NCBI GenBank assembly: GCA_016195275.1 | Contig: JACPZZ010000010.1 | Span: forward strand, 1-43,444 | Length of the DNA stretch: 43,444 nt | Direction: 5' to 3' | DNA from: Candidatus Aenigmatarchaeota archaeon | GTDB lineage: Archaea > Aenigmatarchaeota > Aenigmatarchaeia > JACPZZ01 | In this document: positions 3,467 through 19,236 of the stretch, piece after piece | Layout: every line of letters starts with the position of its first letter | Numbering within the stretch: the first letter of the stretch is position 1 | Translations under genes and position numbers: made by a program | The notes under the pieces: generated by a model | Told to the model about the DNA's origin: nothing | The model's input: only the letters and a program-made list of their open reading frames with translations | Database searches by the model: none

Positions 3467-4102
3467 TCAAGAAAAAATTCGTGGGAGTATGTTCCGGCCT
3501 TTTACCAGCCATGTCAGAGGATGCGCGTAAAACGGGCTTTGGATAAAATTCATCGTGAATTTCCCTTTCAAAAACAATTTTCTTGCCTCATATACGTCTT
3601 CAGTTTCGACTTTTACGGTTGCGCGGCCCAGCTCAGACAAAAAATGCGCGTCACTCCCGCAGATGACGGGTTTCTTGCTTATACGTGCAAGCTCCAAAGC
3701 GGCCTCGTTTTTCGTAAGCGATGTGCGGGAATTAAAAGCTTCTACCATATCCACGGCGCGGACCAAAGATCCAGGATTCTTGTGCGCGCGGAACGGGTGG
3801 GGCAAGACGGAAATTGCGCCCTGCGACCTTATCTCGTCGCAGGCTTCCAAAAAGTCGCGCGATTTTACAGCGTCTTCCAGAAACAAACCTATCAGGTGGC
3901 CTTTGTTTGTCGATATTTCCTCCCCCCTGATTATTTTTATCAGATTATCAAATTGCCTGAAAGAAGAAAAATTATTGTGGTCGGTTATTGCAACGCAATC
4001 CACACTGTTGGAAATTTCCTTTTTTGATACGCTCTTAGGATCCGTATTGCAGTCGGCAGAATATTTTGTGTGAATATGTAAATCGATTTTAATGTTGATC
4101 AC
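3467..4102 (-). CDS. PHP-domain metal-dependent phosphoesterase
   Basis: A 211-residue single-domain PHP protein with the expected metal-ligand motifs in order: DLHIHT (7-12), ITDHN (about 39-43), GEE (about 60-62), HPF (about 101-103) and GSDAH near residue 150. The family hydrolyses phosphoesters (histidinol phosphate, nucleoside 3',5'-bisphosphates, oligonucleotides and others) with a trinuclear metal site; the substrate here is not evident. The start codon is GTG (4100-4102), inside a GGTGATC sequence, six bases after the stop of the upstream phosphoglycosyl transferase gene, so the two are probably co-transcribed. The gene converges on the dehydratase gene with a 56-bp gap. A role in sugar-phosphate metabolism would suit the neighbourhood but is inference. 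Confidence 0.8.
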   Translation of the reverse strand: MINIKIDLHIHTKYSADCNTDPKSVSKKEISNSVDCVAITDHNNFSSFRQFDNLIKIIRGEEISTNKGHLIGLFLEDAVKSRDFLEACDEIRSQGAISVLPHPFRAHKNPGSLVRAVDMVEAFNSRTSLTKNEAALELARISKKPVICGSDAHFLSELGRATVKVETEDVYEARKLFLKGKFTMNFIQSPFYAHPLTWLVKGRNILPRIFS

Positions 4103-8353: not shown

Positions 8354-9040
8354 ATGAGCGATGTTGGTATTTTGTTTCCAGCCTATAACGAGGAGAATAA
8401 CATAAAAAACGTGATCAAGGAAGCCAAAAAATATCTTCCGGCCGCAAAGATATTGGTAGTAGACGACGGATCCTCGGACAGGACCGTTGCAATTTCAAAG
8501 AAAGAGGCCGTGCATGTCGTTACCCATGCTGTAAATAAAGGCAAAGGGGAAGCCCTGAAATCCGGTTTGAAATTTTTCAACAAGGCCAAAAGCGTGAAGT
8601 ATATCGTGGTTGCCGACGCGGACAGGCAGTACTCTGTGAAAGAGGCAAAACTTTTGCTTGAGCCTCTATTAAATGATGAAGCGGACGTTGTGATGGGCAG
8701 GCGGAATTTCAAAAGAATCCCGCTGCGCCACAGACTGGGAAATTTTGCGTGGAGGACAACCTTTAACGCCCTTTTCGGGACGAGCATGGACGATACGAAT
8801 TGCGGTTTTATAGCCATGAAAAAATCGGCTGCGAACCTGATCTTGAACGCGTCTGGAGGCGGATATATCATCGAAAACGCCATGATGATTGAAGCCATTA
8901 AACACAGGCTTAGAATAAAACAAGTTGACGTTTCCGTGAACTATCGCAGGACAAGCGCAGTTCCCCGGGGGATAAAAATGGTGGCGGGAGTCCTTGTTTT
9001 TATCCTTAAAAACGGTATAAGATATCGCCTTGGAAGATGA
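8354..9040 (+). CDS. GT2-family glycosyltransferase, dolichyl-phosphate-sugar synthase-like
   Basis: A 228-residue GT-A protein. It opens with GILFPAYNEENNIKNVI, then the nucleotide-binding VVDDGSSDRT (about 35-44), NKGKGEAL (about 62-69) and the metal-binding DADRQYS (about 90-96). Size and motif spacing match dolichyl-phosphate mannose/glucose synthases (DPM1/AglD group) without a membrane tail. Such enzymes make the polyprenyl-phosphate sugars used by GT-C transferases like the one at 5560-7158. ATG at 8354 follows a GGGGGCCGGGAG stretch. It lies directly upstream of the oligosaccharyltransferase genes, and its stop (9038-9040) is 4 bases before the likely start of the next gene, so the three probably form one unit. 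Confidence 0.87.
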   Translation: MSDVGILFPAYNEENNIKNVIKEAKKYLPAAKILVVDDGSSDRTVAISKKEAVHVVTHAVNKGKGEALKSGLKFFNKAKSVKYIVVADADRQYSVKEAKLLLEPLLNDEADVVMGRRNFKRIPLRHRLGNFAWRTTFNALFGTSMDDTNCGFIAMKKSAANLILNASGGGYIIENAMMIEAIKHRLRIKQVDVSVNYRRTSAVPRGIKMVAGVLVFILKNGIRYRLGR

Positions 9041-9044
9041 GCAG

Positions 9045-10457
9045 ATGGAACTTAACAAAGACAGGAAAAAGCTTCTGGCATCGTTGGTAATTTTCTTAGT
9101 GGTTTTGTTCTCCTTTTTCATGGCGCTTAAATTACGGGCCACGCCAGCTTTGATAAACCCGCCTTGGCTGCCGCAATTTGACAGCTATTGGTTTTACAGG
9201 TATGCCAAAATGACTGTTGACAACCGGGGCTCCATGCCAGACTGGGATCCGCTAAGCTACTTCCCTCCCGGCCGTCCTACGGACAAGTCCACACAGTTTT
9301 ACACGTACCTGCTTGCGTATTCGTTCATGCTGGGAAAGCAATTTTTGCATGACCTCAGCCTAGTGCAAAGCGTAAAATGGACCGCAGCCATCCTCGCATC
9401 CCTGTCGGTATTCCCAGCTTATTTCATAGGAAAATACATGGGCGGCCGGGTTGCAGGCCTGGTGTCGGCCATACTGATCGCTGTTTCGCCGTCAATATTG
9501 GTGAGAACAGGCGCTGACCCGGACAACGACGGAGCTGTGGTATTTCTTACAATGTTTTCCTTTTTTGCCATCACGCGGCTGATAAGGGAGCCGAACTGGA
9601 AAAATACCGTTCTCAGTATTTTTTCCCTCAGCCTATTCTCGTTGAGCTGGTACCCGTTCTGGTACGTCGTGATGATATCGGTTGGCGGGCTGTTTCTTAA
9701 CGTTGCGCTGTCTTTTGTCCAGTCGGCAATAGAAAAAGACAAAAAGCTGCTGAACGAGGTGGTAAAAGAAACTAAACCGAGGCTAAAATACGTGTCTGCT
9801 GTGTTACTCGGAATAATCGCGGTCCCGTTCATGCTGGGGGTAAACACGCTTAGTTATTTTGGCGGATTCATACTTTTCGGCACCAACCCGCAGGGCTCGT
9901 CGATAGTCAACATATCCGTTGCCGAGCTGCAAAAATTAAACATACTTTCCCTGTCGGGGTGGGAACAAATCATCGGAAGAACGGCAGGCCTGGAATTTTT
10001 CGGTTATATAATACCTTCCATGCCACAGCTTGTCAATTACTTGGCGGAGCTTGTTGTAATCGCCACTCTTGCTTACATGTCATGGAATCTTTATTCAAAG
10101 AAAAGAAACGTTGAATCTTCAATCTTCGGATTATCCACTATCATAGCGTTCTATCTTCTGCTGCTTAATTCCAGTCTGATATCGTTTCTCCAGATAACAA
10201 CATTCGTTTCGCTTGTCCAATACGCCATGTTTGCAACGTTTCGCAGGAACAGATTCATGGGTTCAATACTTTTGGTTTGGGTGATTTTCACATTTTACGC
10301 AATATCTTCGGGCGTGAGGTTCACACTGCTATTCGCGCCGGCCGCAGCGATAGCGCTTTCCGTGGGCCTTGGGGAATTGTGGATATGGGCAAACAGAAAA
10401 GAGGCTGGATTGATACAATCCATAGAAAATAAAATCCATGGTGATAAGGATGAGTGA
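9045..10457 (+). CDS. aglB: Oligosaccharyltransferase STT3/AglB, membrane-domain half of a split gene
   Basis: About 470 residues with an N-terminal helix (10-30) and roughly 12 membrane helices, ending after about 15 polar residues with no luminal domain. Three STT3 signatures are visible: FDSYWFYR in the first external loop (Asp 46), DPDND near 158-162, and a SVAE motif near 291-294, equivalent to the SVxE/TIxE loop that gates the acceptor site. The WWDxG catalytic domain is missing and is encoded by the next gene, which overlaps by 8 bases. STT3 transfers the lipid-linked glycan to Asn in N-x-S/T sequons on the outer face. ATG at 9045 was chosen over an upstream TTG (9030), which would overlap the GT2 gene. 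Confidence 0.85.
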   Translation: MELNKDRKKLLASLVIFLVVLFSFFMALKLRATPALINPPWLPQFDSYWFYRYAKMTVDNRGSMPDWDPLSYFPPGRPTDKSTQFYTYLLAYSFMLGKQFLHDLSLVQSVKWTAAILASLSVFPAYFIGKYMGGRVAGLVSAILIAVSPSILVRTGADPDNDGAVVFLTMFSFFAITRLIREPNWKNTVLSIFSLSLFSLSWYPFWYVVMISVGGLFLNVALSFVQSAIEKDKKLLNEVVKETKPRLKYVSAVLLGIIAVPFMLGVNTLSYFGGFILFGTNPQGSSIVNISVAELQKLNILSLSGWEQIIGRTAGLEFFGYIIPSMPQLVNYLAELVVIATLAYMSWNLYSKKRNVESSIFGLSTIIAFYLLLLNSSLISFLQITTFVSLVQYAMFATFRRNRFMGSILLVWVIFTFYAISSGVRFTLLFAPAAAIALSVGLGELWIWANRKEAGLIQSIENKIHGDKDE

Positions 10458-11385
10458 CGTTATCCTGCGCGCGACAGTAGGCGCGATCATAATAATGTCC
10501 GTGCTGTCCGCAATATCCAGCGGTTCATCATTATCAGCCCAGCTGGGACCGTCGTTAAACGGCAACTGGTACGACGCGATGATGTGGATCAAAAACAACA
10601 CACCGCAAGATTCGATAGTAGTGTACTGGTGGGACCAGGGACATTGGATAACAGGAATAGCCGAACGCGGCGCATATGCCGACGGCGCGCACTGCCCTCT
10701 CACGTCCTGCAAGCCGTACCCGCTGAATACGAGGATAGTCGACGTGGGTAAAGTTTTGACAACAAACGACGAGTCGCTTGCGATCCAGATACTGTCGAAA
10801 TATATGAACTTCACAGAAGCGCAGTGCGAATTAAACAAACGGGCGTTCGGCAACATCGTTCCATGCAAATCCCCTTCGGAGATGTACTTTCTGGCTGCAT
10901 CCGATTTGATAAGCAAATACCCGTGGCCCTCATACTTCGGTTCCCTGTGGCCGACTTATTCCGGCGAAGGCCGCCAGCAACAATTTTTCCAAATAGGGTT
11001 GCAGCAGTTGAAAGACGGCAGCGGGAATGTTGTGGGTTATTACGACCAATGTTTGCGTTTCGATGCTTCGAACAACTGCCAAACTTTCAATTTCCTGGTG
11101 ATAGAGCAGAACGGCAAATTGGCGACAATATACCAGAACAGGAATTTTGTGGAAAATACGGCCTATTTCATAGGTTCGGACCAAAAAACAGACACTACCG
11201 AAAATGCGACGGTTGGCGGAACGTTCTGGATAGACCCGTCTTACGGATTCGCATTCTTTATGACGCCAGAAGTTCAAAACAGCGTTTTCACCAGGCTTTA
11301 TTTCCATGGCGGCAAAGGACTGGACCATTTCAAGCAGGTTTATTCGAACGGAGAAGTCAAGGTATTCAAGGTAAACTTTCAATAA
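10450..11385 (+). CDS. aglB: Oligosaccharyltransferase STT3/AglB, catalytic C-terminal half of a split gene
   Basis: About 311 residues: one N-terminal membrane helix (about 6-24) that can complete the membrane domain, then a soluble outer domain with WWDQG at residues 60-64. This is the WWDxG sequon-recognition motif of all STT3 proteins. ATG at 10450 overlaps the stop of the membrane-half gene (ATGAGTGA) and has GGTGA at 10440-10444, five bases upstream, so separate translation is plausible. An upstream ATG at 10438 is the alternative. In known archaea AglB is one chain. Here the break falls just before the last helix. A sequencing indel would also split the gene, but the well-placed ribosome binding site argues for a real split. 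Confidence 0.82.
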   Translation: MSDVILRATVGAIIIMSVLSAISSGSSLSAQLGPSLNGNWYDAMMWIKNNTPQDSIVVYWWDQGHWITGIAERGAYADGAHCPLTSCKPYPLNTRIVDVGKVLTTNDESLAIQILSKYMNFTEAQCELNKRAFGNIVPCKSPSEMYFLAASDLISKYPWPSYFGSLWPTYSGEGRQQQFFQIGLQQLKDGSGNVVGYYDQCLRFDASNNCQTFNFLVIEQNGKLATIYQNRNFVENTAYFIGSDQKTDTTENATVGGTFWIDPSYGFAFFMTPEVQNSVFTRLYFHGGKGLDHFKQVYSNGEVKVFKVNFQ

Positions 11386-13557: not shown

Positions 13558-14672
13558 AGATATGCATGATAACGTCATACCCTCCGGATAAATGCGGCGT
13601 CTCCGATTACTCCGAGCGTTTGGTCAGGGAGCTTAGACGATCCGGCGAAAATGTCCTGATAATTTCCAGGCAAGGCCCGGGATACCGCAATGAGAGAGAT
13701 ATACGCAGGCTGATAGACACCAAGAAGGTCAAGAGGTCGTTCACACAGCTTGCTGAAGAGTTCCGAGGCATTGCAAGGGCTTACAGAGACGCCGAGGAGT
13801 CCATACTGGCAATAAAGAATTTTGGCGCGGATGTGGCACATGTCCAATACGAGCCCGGCCTTTACAACCTTTTTTTTGTCCCAATCCTTCTTTCCAAATT
13901 AAAAAAAGCCGGCATAAAATCCGTTGTAACCTTGCACGGGATAGATTACTTCCCTCTTACCGTATTCCACAGGACGTTTTTGTACGGCAGCCAGGACAGG
14001 CTAATAGTACACACAAAACACCACTTCAACACGCTGAAATCCGATTTATCCGGAAAAGTTTTAGAAAAAATCCGTATAATCCCGATGGGCCTTGTAAAGG
14101 AAAAGCCTTCGAAAGAAGGAAAATACGCGCTGTTCTTTGGATTTCTAAACCAGCATAAAGGCGTTGAAGAGCTATTGCAGGCCTTTTCCAGGATGAAAAC
14201 CAAAAACAGATTGGTAGTCATAGGCAGCATAAACCCTGCGTATAGACCTGATGTAAAATACAAAAATAAAATAGCGGATATCATCCGTTCACTTGACATC
14301 GGGGACAGGGTAAAATTCATTTACGGCTTTGTCCCGTCCAAAAATCTGGAAAATTACATAAAGAATTCCATGTTCGTTGTTTTTCCATACAGAGCCTCTT
14401 ATTCCGGAGGGCAGAGCCAGGCTGTGACAGACTCGATAGCGTTCGGAAAGCCTCTGATAGTCACCAAACCGGCCCAGGGAAATCTGGTCAACAACGAAAA
14501 TGCGATCGTTATCAACCCCGGCAGCGTAGAAGAATTAACAGATGCGTTACGGAAATTGTTCGGGTCAAAAAAAATTAGGAAAAAACTTTCGTCGAACAAC
14601 AGGAAACTTGCGAAAAAGCTGCGTTGGGACAACATATCCAGGATGACGAAAAACGTTTACAGGACTATCTGA
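13554..14672 (+). CDS. GT4-family glycosyltransferase
   Basis: About 372 residues, beginning MKICMITSYPPDKCGVSDYSERLV, the usual start of GT4 enzymes that use GDP-mannose or similar donors. The C-terminal domain shows YALFFGFLNQHKGVEELL near residue 185 and a SGGQSQAVTDSIAFGKPLIVT segment at the E-x7-E position, where the acidic residues are replaced (a variant seen in some GT4 groups). ATG at 13554 overlaps the previous stop (ATGA) and follows GGTGA by 7 bases. The 3' end overlaps the convergent HTH-CBS gene by 8 bases. It is the last gene of the glycosylation cluster. Confidence 0.86.
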   Translation: MKICMITSYPPDKCGVSDYSERLVRELRRSGENVLIISRQGPGYRNERDIRRLIDTKKVKRSFTQLAEEFRGIARAYRDAEESILAIKNFGADVAHVQYEPGLYNLFFVPILLSKLKKAGIKSVVTLHGIDYFPLTVFHRTFLYGSQDRLIVHTKHHFNTLKSDLSGKVLEKIRIIPMGLVKEKPSKEGKYALFFGFLNQHKGVEELLQAFSRMKTKNRLVVIGSINPAYRPDVKYKNKIADIIRSLDIGDRVKFIYGFVPSKNLENYIKNSMFVVFPYRASYSGGQSQAVTDSIAFGKPLIVTKPAQGNLVNNENAIVINPGSVEELTDALRKLFGSKKIRKKLSSNNRKLAKKLRWDNISRMTKNVYRTI

Positions 14673-15189
14673 GTATGTCCAGCTTTGTTATGATGCCGCA
14701 TATTTTCCCATGCGACGAAACTAATACGGCCTGATGGAATTCGAGCAGTGCCGGAAGAGTTTCTATGTTCTCATTTTCATCCAAGATTGGGAATGGCTTG
14801 TCCATTATATCCCTCACTTTTTTTCCTTCTATGCGCTCAAAATTTCTAAGCAGAGTGCTTTCGCTTACGCTGCCGACTTGAGAGCTCTTTTTCATTACCG
14901 GCATCTGTGAAATCCCGTAACGCCGCATTATTATCAGCGCTTTTTTTGCATCATCGTTTGGGTCTATGAATTTCACGTTTCGTTCCATCACATTCCTGCA
15001 TTTTTCAGTTTCTTTCGGATGTATAGCGGCCAGGATTTTGTTTACGGTGGATAAGGTCGGGTTCACTTTTCCACCCTCGATCTTAGCTATATGCGCTTGG
15101 CTGATACCGACTTTTTTTGCCAGTTCCGTTTGCGATATAGATGCCTTTTTCCGCAAAGATCGCAGGTAGCCGCCTGTTATTATAACCAT
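14665..15189 (-). CDS. Transcriptional regulator with HTH (XRE-like) and CBS domains
   Basis: 174 residues. Residues about 7-52 are an XRE/Cro-type helix-turn-helix (GYLRSLRKKASISQTELAKK, then VGISQAHIAKIEGGKVNPTL). Residues about 60-174 are a pair of CBS domains (RNVMERNVKFIDPNDDAKKAL and VRDIMDKPFPILDENENIETL). CBS pairs bind adenosyl ligands such as AMP, ATP or S-adenosylmethionine, so this is a metabolite-responsive regulator common in archaea. It is divergent from the SAM synthase gene. A 21-bp palindrome covers its start codon, consistent with autorepression. That its ligand is SAM or a related compound is inference from position only. Confidence 0.88.
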   Translation of the reverse strand: MVIITGGYLRSLRKKASISQTELAKKVGISQAHIAKIEGGKVNPTLSTVNKILAAIHPKETEKCRNVMERNVKFIDPNDDAKKALIIMRRYGISQMPVMKKSSQVGSVSESTLLRNFERIEGKKVRDIMDKPFPILDENENIETLPALLEFHQAVLVSSHGKICGIITKLDILR

Positions 15190-15199
15190 TGGTTATAAT
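15179..15199. promoter_or_regulatory. 21-bp palindrome over the start codon of the HTH-CBS gene (probable operator)
   Basis: ATTATAACCA and TGGTTATAAT form perfect 10-bp arms around one central base. The ATG of the HTH-CBS gene (15187-15189, minus strand) lies within it. An XRE-type dimer would bind such a site and block its own expression. An AT-rich TATATATC stretch at 15212-15219 is placed as a TATA box for the minus strand. The same regulator could also act on the divergent metK promoter about 80 bp away. Confidence 0.65.
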
Positions 15200-15274
15200 T
15201 TTACGCACTGATATATATCTTTATTTATCGTATCTTTTGAAGGTAAATGGCTTGAAAAATAGAAAATTTAATGG

Positions 15275-15307
15275 ATATAAAACGACTCTCAAAGTCAATG
15301 GGGGTGA
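15275..15307 (+). promoter_or_regulatory. metK TATA box and ribosome binding site
   Basis: ATATAAAA at 15275-15282 is a good archaeal TATA box. GGGGGTGA at 15300-15307 is complementary to the 16S rRNA 3' end and lies 6 bases before the metK ATG at 15314. The spacing implies a very short leader, too short for a riboswitch. Confidence 0.55.
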
Positions 15308-15313
15308 GCAGCT

Positions 15314-17615
15314 ATGAAGAAGCAATTCTTCACTTCCGAATCTGTTACGGAAGGGCATCCTTGACAAAATCTGCGACCAAATAAGCGATGCTATCTTAGA
15401 TAATCTTATAGCTCAGGATCCAAATTCACGTGTCGCGGTTGAGTGTTTAACAACAACAGGGTTGGTTGTGGTCGCGGGCGAGGTTACGACGAGAGGTTAT
15501 GCCGATGTGCAGGGAATTGTCAGAAAAACGCTAAAGGAAATAGGATACATAAACCCGTCTTTTGGGATAGACAGCGAAGACGCGGGCGTGCTTGTTTCCA
15601 TACACGGACAAAGCCCAGATATTTCGCAAGGTGTAACGCAAACCGAAACTAAAGAACAGGGTGCCGGTGATCAGGGTTGTTTAAAAGAAGGAACGTTAAT
15701 TAGAACCTTGAGAGGATTCATACCCATTGAAGACGTTAAACCCGGAGATAGCGTGTTAACAACGGACGGGTTCAAAAGAGTTTTAAAGTCCAAATTCACA
15801 GGGACAAAGAAAATAATCGAAATTGTGTTCTCTAATGGTATGTCTTTGGAGTGTACGCCAGACCATAGGGTCCTTTGTTATAAAAAAAACGGCAAATTGC
15901 ACTGGAAACAAGCACAAAATATGACTAAGCAGGATTTTATATGCATGCAGAAGCCGGAATCGGTATTCTCGAATGATTTATGGTCCTCCAAGGTAGAACA
16001 TGAAGAATTCTTTACAAAATTTAACCATAAGATATACGGACCCGAAGAAACGATTTTAAACCAGAATTTAGGCTACGTAATGGGGGAACTTATCGGTGAC
16101 GGCTATTGTGGTAAAACAAGTTCATTACAAATAGCGTTCGGTAATAATATTGCACACGCGCCGCTCGTTAAAAACATCGCAGATCAGACTTTTCCAGGCC
16201 AATGGAGATTATTAAAAAACAAGCTTGGTATAGAACTTAAAATATATTCTGTTGTTGCGCGACGTCATTTTGAAAATTTCGGACTGCTTTATAACCGTTC
16301 CCCGGCTAAGATCACACCTGAAGCCATATTTACCTCACCGCCGGACGTTATACGGGCTTATCTTCGAGGCCTTTTTGACAGTGACGGCACTATAGTAAGC
16401 AACACAGGCAGGAATAAAGATAATATCAGAATAAGACTCTCGTCATCTTCTCTTAGGTTGTTGCGTGAAACACAACTTCTGCTTTATGATTTTGGAATAA
16501 AAACTTCGATAATCTTCAACCGACCTAAAGGTACACCGGTGGGCAAATATCCGAAATACCAATCGAATTATGATAATTATGTTTTGAGCGTTGTCGGATT
16601 CGACAGTTACCATAATTTCGCCAGATATATAGGCTTTCTGGATCCTAAAAAAATGGAAAGAATGAAAGAATACACCAAAACCAATAAACTGAAGCCCGAA
16701 AAAACTTTACCATTTGCTATTACAACTATCGGGAAAATCGTATCGCATGATAAGGCGCCGGTTTATGATCTTGAAATCGAAGATGCGCATATGTTCTCTG
16801 CAAATGGCGTATTCGTACATAACTCCATGTTTGGTTATGCGTGCAATGAAACTCCTGAACTAATGCCATTGCCGATAATGCTTGCACACAGATTAACGAG
16901 AAAATTGGCCGACGTGCGAAAAAGCGGAGAGATAAAAAACATAGGGCCGGACGGCAAATCACAGGTCAGCGTGGAATATCATGATGGAGTTCCGAAAAGA
17001 TTAACAAATGTTGTTATAGCTGCACAACATACGGTTGACATCGGCGAAGAAGAATTGAGGAAAGAGATAATAGAAAAGGTGGTCAAACCAGTTTGTGGTA
17101 ATTATCTGGACAATGAAACAAGGATACACATCAACGCAACAGGAAAATTCGTGATTGGCGGGCCCGAAGGCGATTCTGGCTTGACGGGAAGAAAAATTAT
17201 CGTAGATACTTATGGCGGTGCGGGGAAACACGGGGGAGGGGCCCTAAGTGGAAAAGACCCCTCAAAGGTTGACCGTTCGGGCGCATACGCTGCGCGTTAT
17301 GTTGCAAAAAACATCGTCGCCGCAGGCCTTGCGGACAAGTGCGAAGTTGCGATATCGTATTGCATCGGAATCGCAGAACCTACGTCCATAAACATCGAAA
17401 CATTCGGCACAAACAAAATACCAGAGGAGAAGATTGAAGAACTTGTCAAGAAACATTTCAAACTGACCCCGAAATGGATAATCGATACGCTGCAGCTTCG
17501 CAGGCCGATTTACAGGAAAACCGCCGCTTATGGGCATTTCGGGCGCACGGAACCGGAGTTTACATGGGAGAGAACGGATAAAGCGGACATTTTGAGGAGC
17601 GAGGCCGGACTTTAG
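15314..17615 (+). CDS. metK: Methionine adenosyltransferase (bacterial-type MetK), +1 frameshift near the start, intein-containing
   Basis: MetK makes S-adenosylmethionine from ATP and methionine. ATG at 15314 gives [16 protein letters not shown] and then meets TGA (15362-15364). Skipping one T (CCT T GAC) continues as [13 protein letters not shown], restoring the conserved EGHPDK motif. The rest is open for more than 700 codons. Exteins (15314-15677 and 16824-17615) total about 384 residues, the usual bacterial MetK length. [39 protein letters not shown] and [20 protein letters not shown] are all bacterial-type, unlike the divergent archaeal MAT family, so transfer from bacteria is likely. 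Either the frameshift is programmed, or it is a sequencing indel or recent mutation. A 382-residue intein interrupts the protein after GAGDQG. Confidence 0.88.
15350..15365 (+). other. Candidate +1 frameshift site in metK
   Basis: The sequence GAAGGGCATCCTTGAC places a purine-rich GGAAGGG three bases before a CCT codon, a TGA stop and a C. The E. coli prfB programmed site is AGGGGGTATCTTTGAC, with the same order and spacing (Shine-Dalgarno-like run, three bases, shift codon, TGA, C). TGAC is a poor termination context. Reading P in frame 0 and D in frame +1 recreates the universal GHPDK motif. Function is inferred; a single extra T in the assembly would look the same. Confidence 0.4.
15678..16823 (+). 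other. Intein with LAGLIDADG homing endonuclease, inside MetK
   Basis: A 382-residue intein starts with Cys ([20 protein letters not shown], block A). It has a block B TPDHRVL segment near residue 70, LAGLIDADG-type motifs [12 protein letters not shown] (about 131) and [10 protein letters not shown] (about 227), and ends FVHN before a Ser +1 residue. The terminal His-Asn and Cys1/Ser+1 are the expected splicing residues, and both endonuclease acidic residues remain, so splicing and homing look intact. The insertion point is the conserved MetK segment GAGDQG/MFGYA. The usual hydrophobic residue after GDQG is Ser here, as splicing needs. Confidence 0.93.
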
Positions 17616-17846: not shown

Positions 17847-18497
17847 GTGTTAATTGCAAATAAGCTCAATGCGATAATCAGAATCTTACTAGTTAACTCT
17901 CTAGAAAATAAACAGGACCTCACGGTTTATGCACTGGCTAAAAAAGCTGGTATCACACAAGCTATGGCAAAGCGTTTAGTTATTAGACTTAAGGATAGCG
18001 AATATGTCTCAATTGGACATGGGGTTAGAGTTGTCAATCCTATTAAACTCATTAGGGCGTGGGGGTATACTTATTCGGTCAATGAACTTGACAACATACA
18101 GTTTGTGGCTGCAGAAAGGCCTCAATATGTTATGTTGAAAATCGCAAATATGGCTAGAATGTCAGATAAGCGTTACGCTTTTACCTTGTTTTCAGCAACT
18201 GAGCACATAAACCCGTATGTTGCTCCGTCAGTTACGCATCTTTACATACCTAAAAAAGACGCACACGATTGGGAGTTTTTATTTACAACTGCAAATATGT
18301 TACCAACCGAGAAAGGCGGGGATGTAATCTGTTTTCTAGTGGATGAATACTATTTTGAAGGTACATGGAATTCTAGAGGTATGATGGTTACTTCTGTGGC
18401 TCAATTGTGTGCTGATCTATATTCATATGGTGGACGTGGCGAAGAAGCAGCTGAACAACTTATTACAATGATCAAGAGGCGTTTGGAAAATGTATGA
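17847..18497 (+). CDS. AbiEi-like winged-helix antitoxin/regulator
   Basis: 216 residues starting at GTG (an upstream ATG at 17831 hits a stop after three codons). Residues about 20-55 form a winged-helix DNA-binding domain (DLTVYALAKKAGITQAMAKRLVI). The remainder resembles the C-terminal domain of AbiEi-type type IV antitoxins. The gene overlaps the downstream nucleotidyltransferase gene by 8 bases, as in AbiE-type operons, where the antitoxin represses its promoter and counteracts a nucleotidyltransferase toxin. AT-rich composition and codon use differ from neighbouring metK and suggest acquisition. The assignment rests on layout plus fold-like features; another HTH family is possible. Confidence 0.65.
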   Translation: MLIANKLNAIIRILLVNSLENKQDLTVYALAKKAGITQAMAKRLVIRLKDSEYVSIGHGVRVVNPIKLIRAWGYTYSVNELDNIQFVAAERPQYVMLKIANMARMSDKRYAFTLFSATEHINPYVAPSVTHLYIPKKDAHDWEFLFTTANMLPTEKGGDVICFLVDEYYFEGTWNSRGMMVTSVAQLCADLYSYGGRGEEAAEQLITMIKRRLENV

Positions 18498-19236
18498 TCC
18501 TTTGGAAACTGATAAATCTTACTCAGAGTTGGTTTTGATATTAAACGAATGTAAAAAAAGAGACGTTCCTATATGTATTATCGGTGGTTGGGCCACTTAT
18601 TTTTACGTTAACGAAAATTATCACAGAGCTTTCGGAAGAGATTATATGGGTTCCAGAGACATAGATATATTTTTTGACCCGAGAAAGCAATCTGAATTTG
18701 CGGAGGTTGTTGAAAATCTTGGATTTAAAAAAGACGGTTTTCATTTTAGGTACGAAAAAATTTATAACAGGGAAACAAAAAAAGTTATCTCGATAGAGGA
18801 TTCTAAAAAAGAACATATGTATAATCTGATGTACATATTTCTGGATCTATTTTCTAACGAGAAAACAGAAATAATATCTAGTTGGAACGACCTTGAGCCA
18901 CTGAAAGCTATAAGTTTTTCTACAATAAATGGTTTTATTGTTGCGGATATAGACACATTGGTAGCTCTCAAATGTACAGCTTTATTCTACAGGGATAAGT
19001 CTGATAAAGAAAACAAAGATGCAATTGATTTGTACGCTCTACTTGTGTATAGCGAGAAGAAAATAGTTTCAACCGAATCGCTAGTTAAGGCTATTGAAAA
19101 GATTTTAGGTCGTACTGATTTGTTACTTGTAATCGCTCAATATGTATTATTGGATTATGGCAAACAAAATATCGTAGAATTTACATTGAATTCCAAGCTT
19201 AAGGAACTAACTAATAAAGGAGGTTTAAATTTTTAA
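18490..19236 (+). CDS. Nucleotidyltransferase, AbiEii-like toxin candidate
   Basis: 248 residues. The nucleotidyltransferase signature is IIGGWATYF (about 30-38), followed by SRDIDIFFD (55-63) with two metal-binding Asp residues, and a third acidic position probably in FIVADIDTL. This arrangement is that of DNA polymerase beta-like NTases, including AbiEii/MenA toxins that modify tRNA 3' ends. ATG at 18490 overlaps the antitoxin gene by 8 bases. Together the two are probably a type IV toxin-antitoxin or abortive-infection module. An aminoglycoside- or kanamycin-type NTase is an alternative. The stop at 19234-19236 precedes a degraded methyltransferase. Confidence 0.68.
   Translation: MYDPLETDKSYSELVLILNECKKRDVPICIIGGWATYFYVNENYHRAFGRDYMGSRDIDIFFDPRKQSEFAEVVENLGFKKDGFHFRYEKIYNRETKKVISIEDSKKEHMYNLMYIFLDLFSNEKTEIISSWNDLEPLKAISFSTINGFIVADIDTLVALKCTALFYRDKSDKENKDAIDLYALLVYSEKKIVSTESLVKAIEKILGRTDLLLVIAQYVLLDYGKQNIVEFTLNSKLKELTNKGGLNF

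Follow-up and report, generated by a model that had tools for sequence, protein, structure and literature searches.

How can a SAM synthase be made from a metK gene that stops after 16 codons, and why should the gene be broken at that place? The question is raised by the metK of a Candidatus Aenigmatarchaeota archaeon on contig JACPZZ010000010.1 (positions 1 to 43,444 of the forward strand). The window below means this whole stretch of 43,444 nucleotides.

A frame break inside the GHPDK motif

As listed in Table 1, the window metK opens with an ATG (15314–15316) and encodes 16 MetK residues ending in GHP before a TGA followed by C. Direct reading of both frames confirmed the claim of the sequence-only reading that MetK resumes when one base is skipped, DKICDQ then following directly on GHP. 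The surplus T is 15361 or 15362. The same reading had described the remaining 700 codons as intact. The frame is indeed open to 17615, while the count is 750 and includes an intein of 382 residues; both the intein and a nuclease relic upstream had been overlooked. The +1 frame, opening with GAC, encodes the N-terminal, central, and C-terminal domains of a bacterial-type MetK split by the intein, and the mature protein has about 384 residues, intein excluded. No ATG, GTG, or TTG was found in the +1 frame ahead of DKICDQ without an intervening stop, the last stop of this frame before the GAC overlapping the metK start itself (ATGA). Since there is no +1-frame start codon between that stop and the GAC, the active-site motif can obtain its H and P only from the upstream frame. 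The window genome (83% complete) has a single metK copy, and neither a second metK nor an archaeal-type MAT was found in it. No Rfam family, riboswitch or other, reached the gathering threshold in the window and four relatives. Transcriptional slippage as the source of the shift was ruled out, there being no homopolymer run at the site.

The layout of the site resembles that of bacterial prfB, the RF2 gene, in which SD-like purines are followed by three bases, a slip codon, TGA, and C (PMC12421855). The metK site has the same element order and spacing, and here too the gene has an early stop and is intact beyond it in the +1 frame. However, the slip codon is CCY (proline) in metK and CTT (leucine) in prfB, so the site is prfB-like and not a prfB site. 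Unlike the prfB site, it lies in metK, mostly in archaea, is scattered and linked to a homing endonuclease, and no release-factor autoregulation is evident for it.

Table 1. Features of the window metK locus (positions in the window) and of related loci
Feature	Position or locus	Strand	Basis
metK 5′ reading frame, 16 codons and TGA stop	15314–15364	+	sequence read
prfB-like +1 site: SD-like GAAGGG 15350–15355, CAT 15356–15358, slip codon CCT 15359–15361, TGA 15362–15364, C 15365	15350–15365	+	sequence; recurs in 14 phylum genomes and 3 CPR bacteria
metK main frame, GAC (DKICDQ...) to stop, 750 codons including intein	15363–17615	+	translation, domain matches
Intein, 382 aa, LAGLIDADG_3 domain, inserted at GDQG^S of MetK, starts with C, ends with HN	15678–16823	+	domain match, comparison
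C-terminus relic of LAGLIDADG homing endonuclease gene, TGA overlapping metK ATG	15258–15317	+	9.0 bits, tail profile built from other loci
GGGGGTGA, likely metK ribosome-binding site, inside nuclease relic	15300–15307	+	position and sequence; inference
MetK-like EGHPxxLCD stretch in nuclease gene N-termini	L064:3096–4001, L054:1122–2033, L063 about 3735–3795		
Candidate-intron metK loci	L056, L057, L061, L065, L068, L069, L070 (genomes G040, G039, G127, G111, G065, G064, G079)		

Several other features were noted. MetK inteins vary in site, the one in G081 (L059) being inserted at GGGAF^S, and open frames of 833–850 codons suggest further inteins in the in-frame metK of G119, G080, G016, and G066. 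A divergent regulator with HTH and CBS domains adjoins the window metK (14665–15189, minus strand), with a palindrome, TTATAACCATTGGTTATAAT, at its start (15180–15199) that is also found upstream of metK in L001 and L064. Because CBS domains can bind adenosyl ligands, this may be a SAM-related regulator. Just 3′ of the window metK is an AbiEi/AbiEii-like toxin-antitoxin pair (17847–19236; weak Pfam matches). At 9030–11385, an STT3-domain ORF shares 20 nt with the next ORF, which is read in another frame and weakly matches the AglB core; this could be a split oligosaccharyltransferase or another frame break.

Recurrence and constraint of the site

Is the break peculiar to one assembly? A pattern scan for the insertion, with one genome per species (84,980 species), gave 15 matches. 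Thirteen are metK genes broken alike, 10 in Aenigmatarchaeota and 3 in CPR bacteria; the other two (L008 and L011) lie outside metK and are chance matches. A profile search of the phylum (156 genomes) found a bacterial-type metK in 74, 14 of which have the frame break, and the frameshifted genes thus number 17 in two domains. In the comparison of related genomes that the sequence-only reading had proposed, two of the four congeners of the window (G001 and G004) share the identical break and two (G002 and G003) are in-frame. An assembly error or a recent mutation, both considered by that reading, is refuted by this recurrence. A one-base indel in a single MAG would look alike, but 17 assemblies from several projects, spanning genera and two domains, have the same base, and no further case occurs in 84,980 species. 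As for a pseudogene, G000 and G004 share 341 of 380 MetK residues, whereas 3′ of the site they have kept only about half of the synonymous codons; thus, the frameshifted metK behaves as a functional gene. Together with the single copy of metK in the genome, this makes an error, a recent mutation, or a pseudogene hardly conceivable.

All 14 sites in the phylum read GGS CAT CCY T GAC, and GGS CAT CCY TGAC is present in all 17 frameshifted genes. The slip codon in the phylum is CCT in 13 cases and CCC in one, and never CCA or CCG. The in-frame relatives, in which CCG is the commonest proline codon, have CCY in 19 of 46 cases (against 14 of 14; P=9e-5, Fisher's test, kinship ignored). Further Fisher tests, also ignoring kinship, gave P=1e-6 for CCT, P=0.003 for CAT, and P=0.03 for GAC, which is likewise found at 14 of 14 sites. 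The prfB-like +1 layout seen by the sequence-only reading is well supported by the common spacing, the strict CCY and TGAC, and the conservation across genera and even domains. Judging from the codons, a prolyl-tRNA whose anticodon is GGG could leave CCU or CCC and pair again one base further along (with CUU or CCU); a scan of two genomes for tRNA-Pro(GGG) did not find it. Since the universal EGHPD motif nearly spells the site, a single inserted T suffices to create it.

A homing endonuclease gene and its relics upstream of metK

It was found that a LAGLIDADG homing endonuclease gene lies directly upstream of the broken metK in G108, G143, G069, and the CPR bacterium L017. The gene is open in G108 and G143, is interrupted by one TAG in G069, and has a stop in its N-terminal part in L017. 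Its product matches PF14528 twice, has two LAGLIDADG motifs with acidic residues, and profile-matches a solved homing endonuclease, 2dch (E=5.5e-7). In the 156 genomes, close homologues of the nuclease are confined to the neighborhood of frameshifted metK, in G108, G143, and G069, with a C-terminal remnant in G129. Five loci served to build a profile of the nuclease tail, with which the 200 nt upstream of 76 metK genes were searched. The ten best-scoring loci all have the frameshift, and five of these, including the window, had no part in the profile; the window scores 9.0 bits, and no in-frame or intron-bearing locus scores above 3.7 bits. In summary, the frameshifted metK is preceded by the nuclease gene in four genomes and by tail relics in six more, including the window, and neither gene nor relic was found upstream of the in-frame metK genes examined. 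In 7 of the 17 frameshifted genes, the tail profile detected no relic above the background score in the 200 nt upstream. The persistence of the tail would be explained by its last codons, since they contain GGGGGTGA, which judging from its position and sequence is likely the metK ribosome-binding site. In viral contigs (IMG/VR), neither a frameshifted metK nor a close relative of the nuclease was found.

The N-terminus of the nuclease has a MetK-like stretch in three of three genes (EGHPSYLCDNSIDS in G108 versus EGHPDKLCDQISDA in MetK), whose score was matched 1–4 times in 5000 shuffles of the N-terminal region. This stretch may have been left behind by an insertion into metK itself, or it may be a target flank that was duplicated.

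Scattered distribution and a shared 5′ tract

On a MetK tree of 75 sequences, the frameshift label requires 13 changes for 17 genes, 12 of which are forced by well supported branches. Shuffled labels require 15.4 changes on average, and the observed label is nearly as scattered. The nuclease-bearing G108 and G069 are sisters of the in-frame G105 and G068, and the CPR gene L009 groups with one in-frame archaeal metK. Among three species of the genus to which the window belongs, 44 or 45 of the 45 nt ahead of the insertion are identical, compared with 77–78% identity after it, and synonymous-codon tests gave P=4e-5 to 8e-4. The in-frame congeners have a different MetK N-terminus. Such a near-identical tract is expected if it moved recently between species. 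In the pairs G108–G105, G069–G068, G073–G074, and G063–G060, it is not evident that the 5′ tract is of more recent origin than the remainder of the gene. Thus, the patchy distribution is accompanied by a transferred tract that is seen in the window's genus and is unclear in the other pairs, so that the copying of a cassette is supported in that genus and not everywhere, and an escape mutation may have recurred.

A second kind of insertion at GHPDK

In seven other Aenigmatarchaeota genomes, metK has 30–32 extra nucleotides with stop codons just after GHPDK. A bulge-helix-bulge (BHB) can be drawn at both borders in all seven, the minimum-energy folds showing a 4-bp central helix in most, and predicted excision after the second bulge base restores GHPDKICDQ, GHPDKVCDQ, or GHPDKLCDQ in every case. 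Eight pairs are changed on both sides, and the covariation score was reached by none of 500 shuffles and by no slid register, while the outer helix is interrupted by an internal loop. These insertions are candidate pre-mRNA introns of the BHB type. Pre-mRNA introns of 16–44 bp with a BHB are known from the crenarchaeal cbf5 gene (PMC2738675). The metK candidates are likewise very short, have a BHB fold, and lie in a protein gene, but they are found in metK of Aenigmatarchaeota, measure 30–32 nt, and are scattered over the tree (6 changes for 7 genes). For this class, a MetK of two chains made by reinitiation was also considered and set aside, BHB excision restoring GHPDK[IVL]CDQ in all seven. 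For a take-off and landing bypass, matching codons fail in two of three genes (G064, G065, and G079, all giving GHPDKLCDQ by excision). No nuclease-like ORF was noticed beside the seven genes by eye or with a loose regular expression. Many tRNA genes of 90–156 nt in L144–L157 (G143) and L100–L111 (G000) are apparently intron-bearing, so BHB splicing seems heavily used in these two genomes.

Could RNA splicing or a two-chain MetK resolve the break in the window in place of frameshifting? The candidate intron at neighboring codons in seven relatives favors this. However, the window metK has no BHB intron; its surplus of exactly one base is too small to be an intron, and all MetK residues are present on both sides of it, while a chain begun at a downstream start would miss the H and P of the motif. 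The chance of either is close to nil.

Origin of the break

The sequence-only reading had suggested that the site could make SAM synthesis depend on termination or codon supply. Since the site is scattered on the MetK tree and is linked to the LAGLIDADG gene or its relics, this is not the best explanation of its distribution. Probably, the inserted base forms the target-site half of a mobile homing cassette, and metK stays functional by +1 frameshifting. A LAGLIDADG homing endonuclease gene would have entered just upstream of metK. Its target, guessed from position, would be the conserved GHPDK stretch of uninterrupted metK, which the nuclease would cut, and repair would copy the cassette. The inserted T would destroy the target and make the resident copy uncuttable. 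During translation, peptidyl-tRNA-Pro on CCU or CCC would slip +1 at the poorly terminating UGA C, joining GHP to DKICDQ, and the SD-like GAAGG element three bases upstream may assist the slippage as in prfB. The nuclease gene would later decay, leaving its last codons, with the presumed ribosome-binding site of metK, and the fixed frameshift. The window locus may represent such a late stage, with the nuclease decayed and the relic and the frameshift left. An extended form of this reading is conceivable but doubtful. In it, the cassette hides by means of the one-base frameshift and moves between archaea and CPR bacteria; the output of SAM synthase would incidentally become SAM-sensitive, through m1G37 of tRNA-Pro and methylation of the release factor, since ribosomes would slip at a proline codon that adjoins UGA.

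Two rival explanations have to be weighed against the homing cassette. The site might be a regulatory programmed frameshift kept for its own sake, with metK output tuned by SAM. Low SAM would leave tRNA-Pro without m1G37 (Trm5/TrmD) and the release factor under-methylated, resulting in more +1 slippage at CCY-UGA and more MetK. It is known that m1G37 prevents slippage on proline codons and that Trm5 and TrmD use SAM (PMC5372744); moreover, the slip codons are only CCU and CCC, and Trm5/TYW2-family genes are present in all six frameshifted-metK genomes tested. Such tuning is nevertheless improbable, since a stable regulatory device would not be scattered, as this site is, among close relatives that are in-frame, and since the nuclease gene and relics are left unexplained. 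The other rival keeps the nuclease and dispenses with donor copying: metK is cut at GHPDK by the nuclease, and a T is added when the cut is repaired incorrectly. Since only such an indel would both kill the target and keep metK translatable by slippage, the same change would arise repeatedly. The lineage-typical 5′ codons in G081, G108, and G069, the scattered MetK tree, and the single T that turns EGHPD into a prfB-like site are consistent with this. Both the 5′ tract shared within the window's genus and the nuclease tail before the altered copy fit the copying of a cassette better, and recurrent escape is decidedly unlikely.

Comparison with other homing elements and implications

The homing cassette resembles the situation of phage T4 gene 60, which is adjoined by a homing endonuclease gene and has a 50-nt insert that presumably prevents cleavage and that ribosomes bypass (PMC5009743). 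The metK gene is also altered next to a homing endonuclease gene, with protection and recoding that are predicted from sequence. However, metK has one base and a +1 shift in place of a 50-nt hop, and the nuclease is of the LAGLIDADG type beside an essential cellular gene of archaea and CPR bacteria, the latter being rich in LAGLIDADG elements (PMC11270868). LAGLIDADG inteins and introns are likewise homing elements in conserved motifs, but they hide by protein or RNA splicing, whereas the camouflage proposed for metK is a frameshift. The open-access literature, as searched here, yielded no description of a frameshift in metK or of a one-base frameshift linked to a nuclease.

There is little documentation of programmed +1 frameshifting in cellular genes of archaea. 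In the present case, many archaea appear to need it for an essential enzyme, and metK is likely annotated as truncated in these genomes. If the homing reading is true, the frameshift would join introns and inteins as a third means by which a homing element can persist in an essential gene, and it would offer a concrete path to the origin of programmed frameshifts. With two different insertions at GHPDK and inteins elsewhere in the gene, metK is a good test bed for the evolution of homing elements and recoding.
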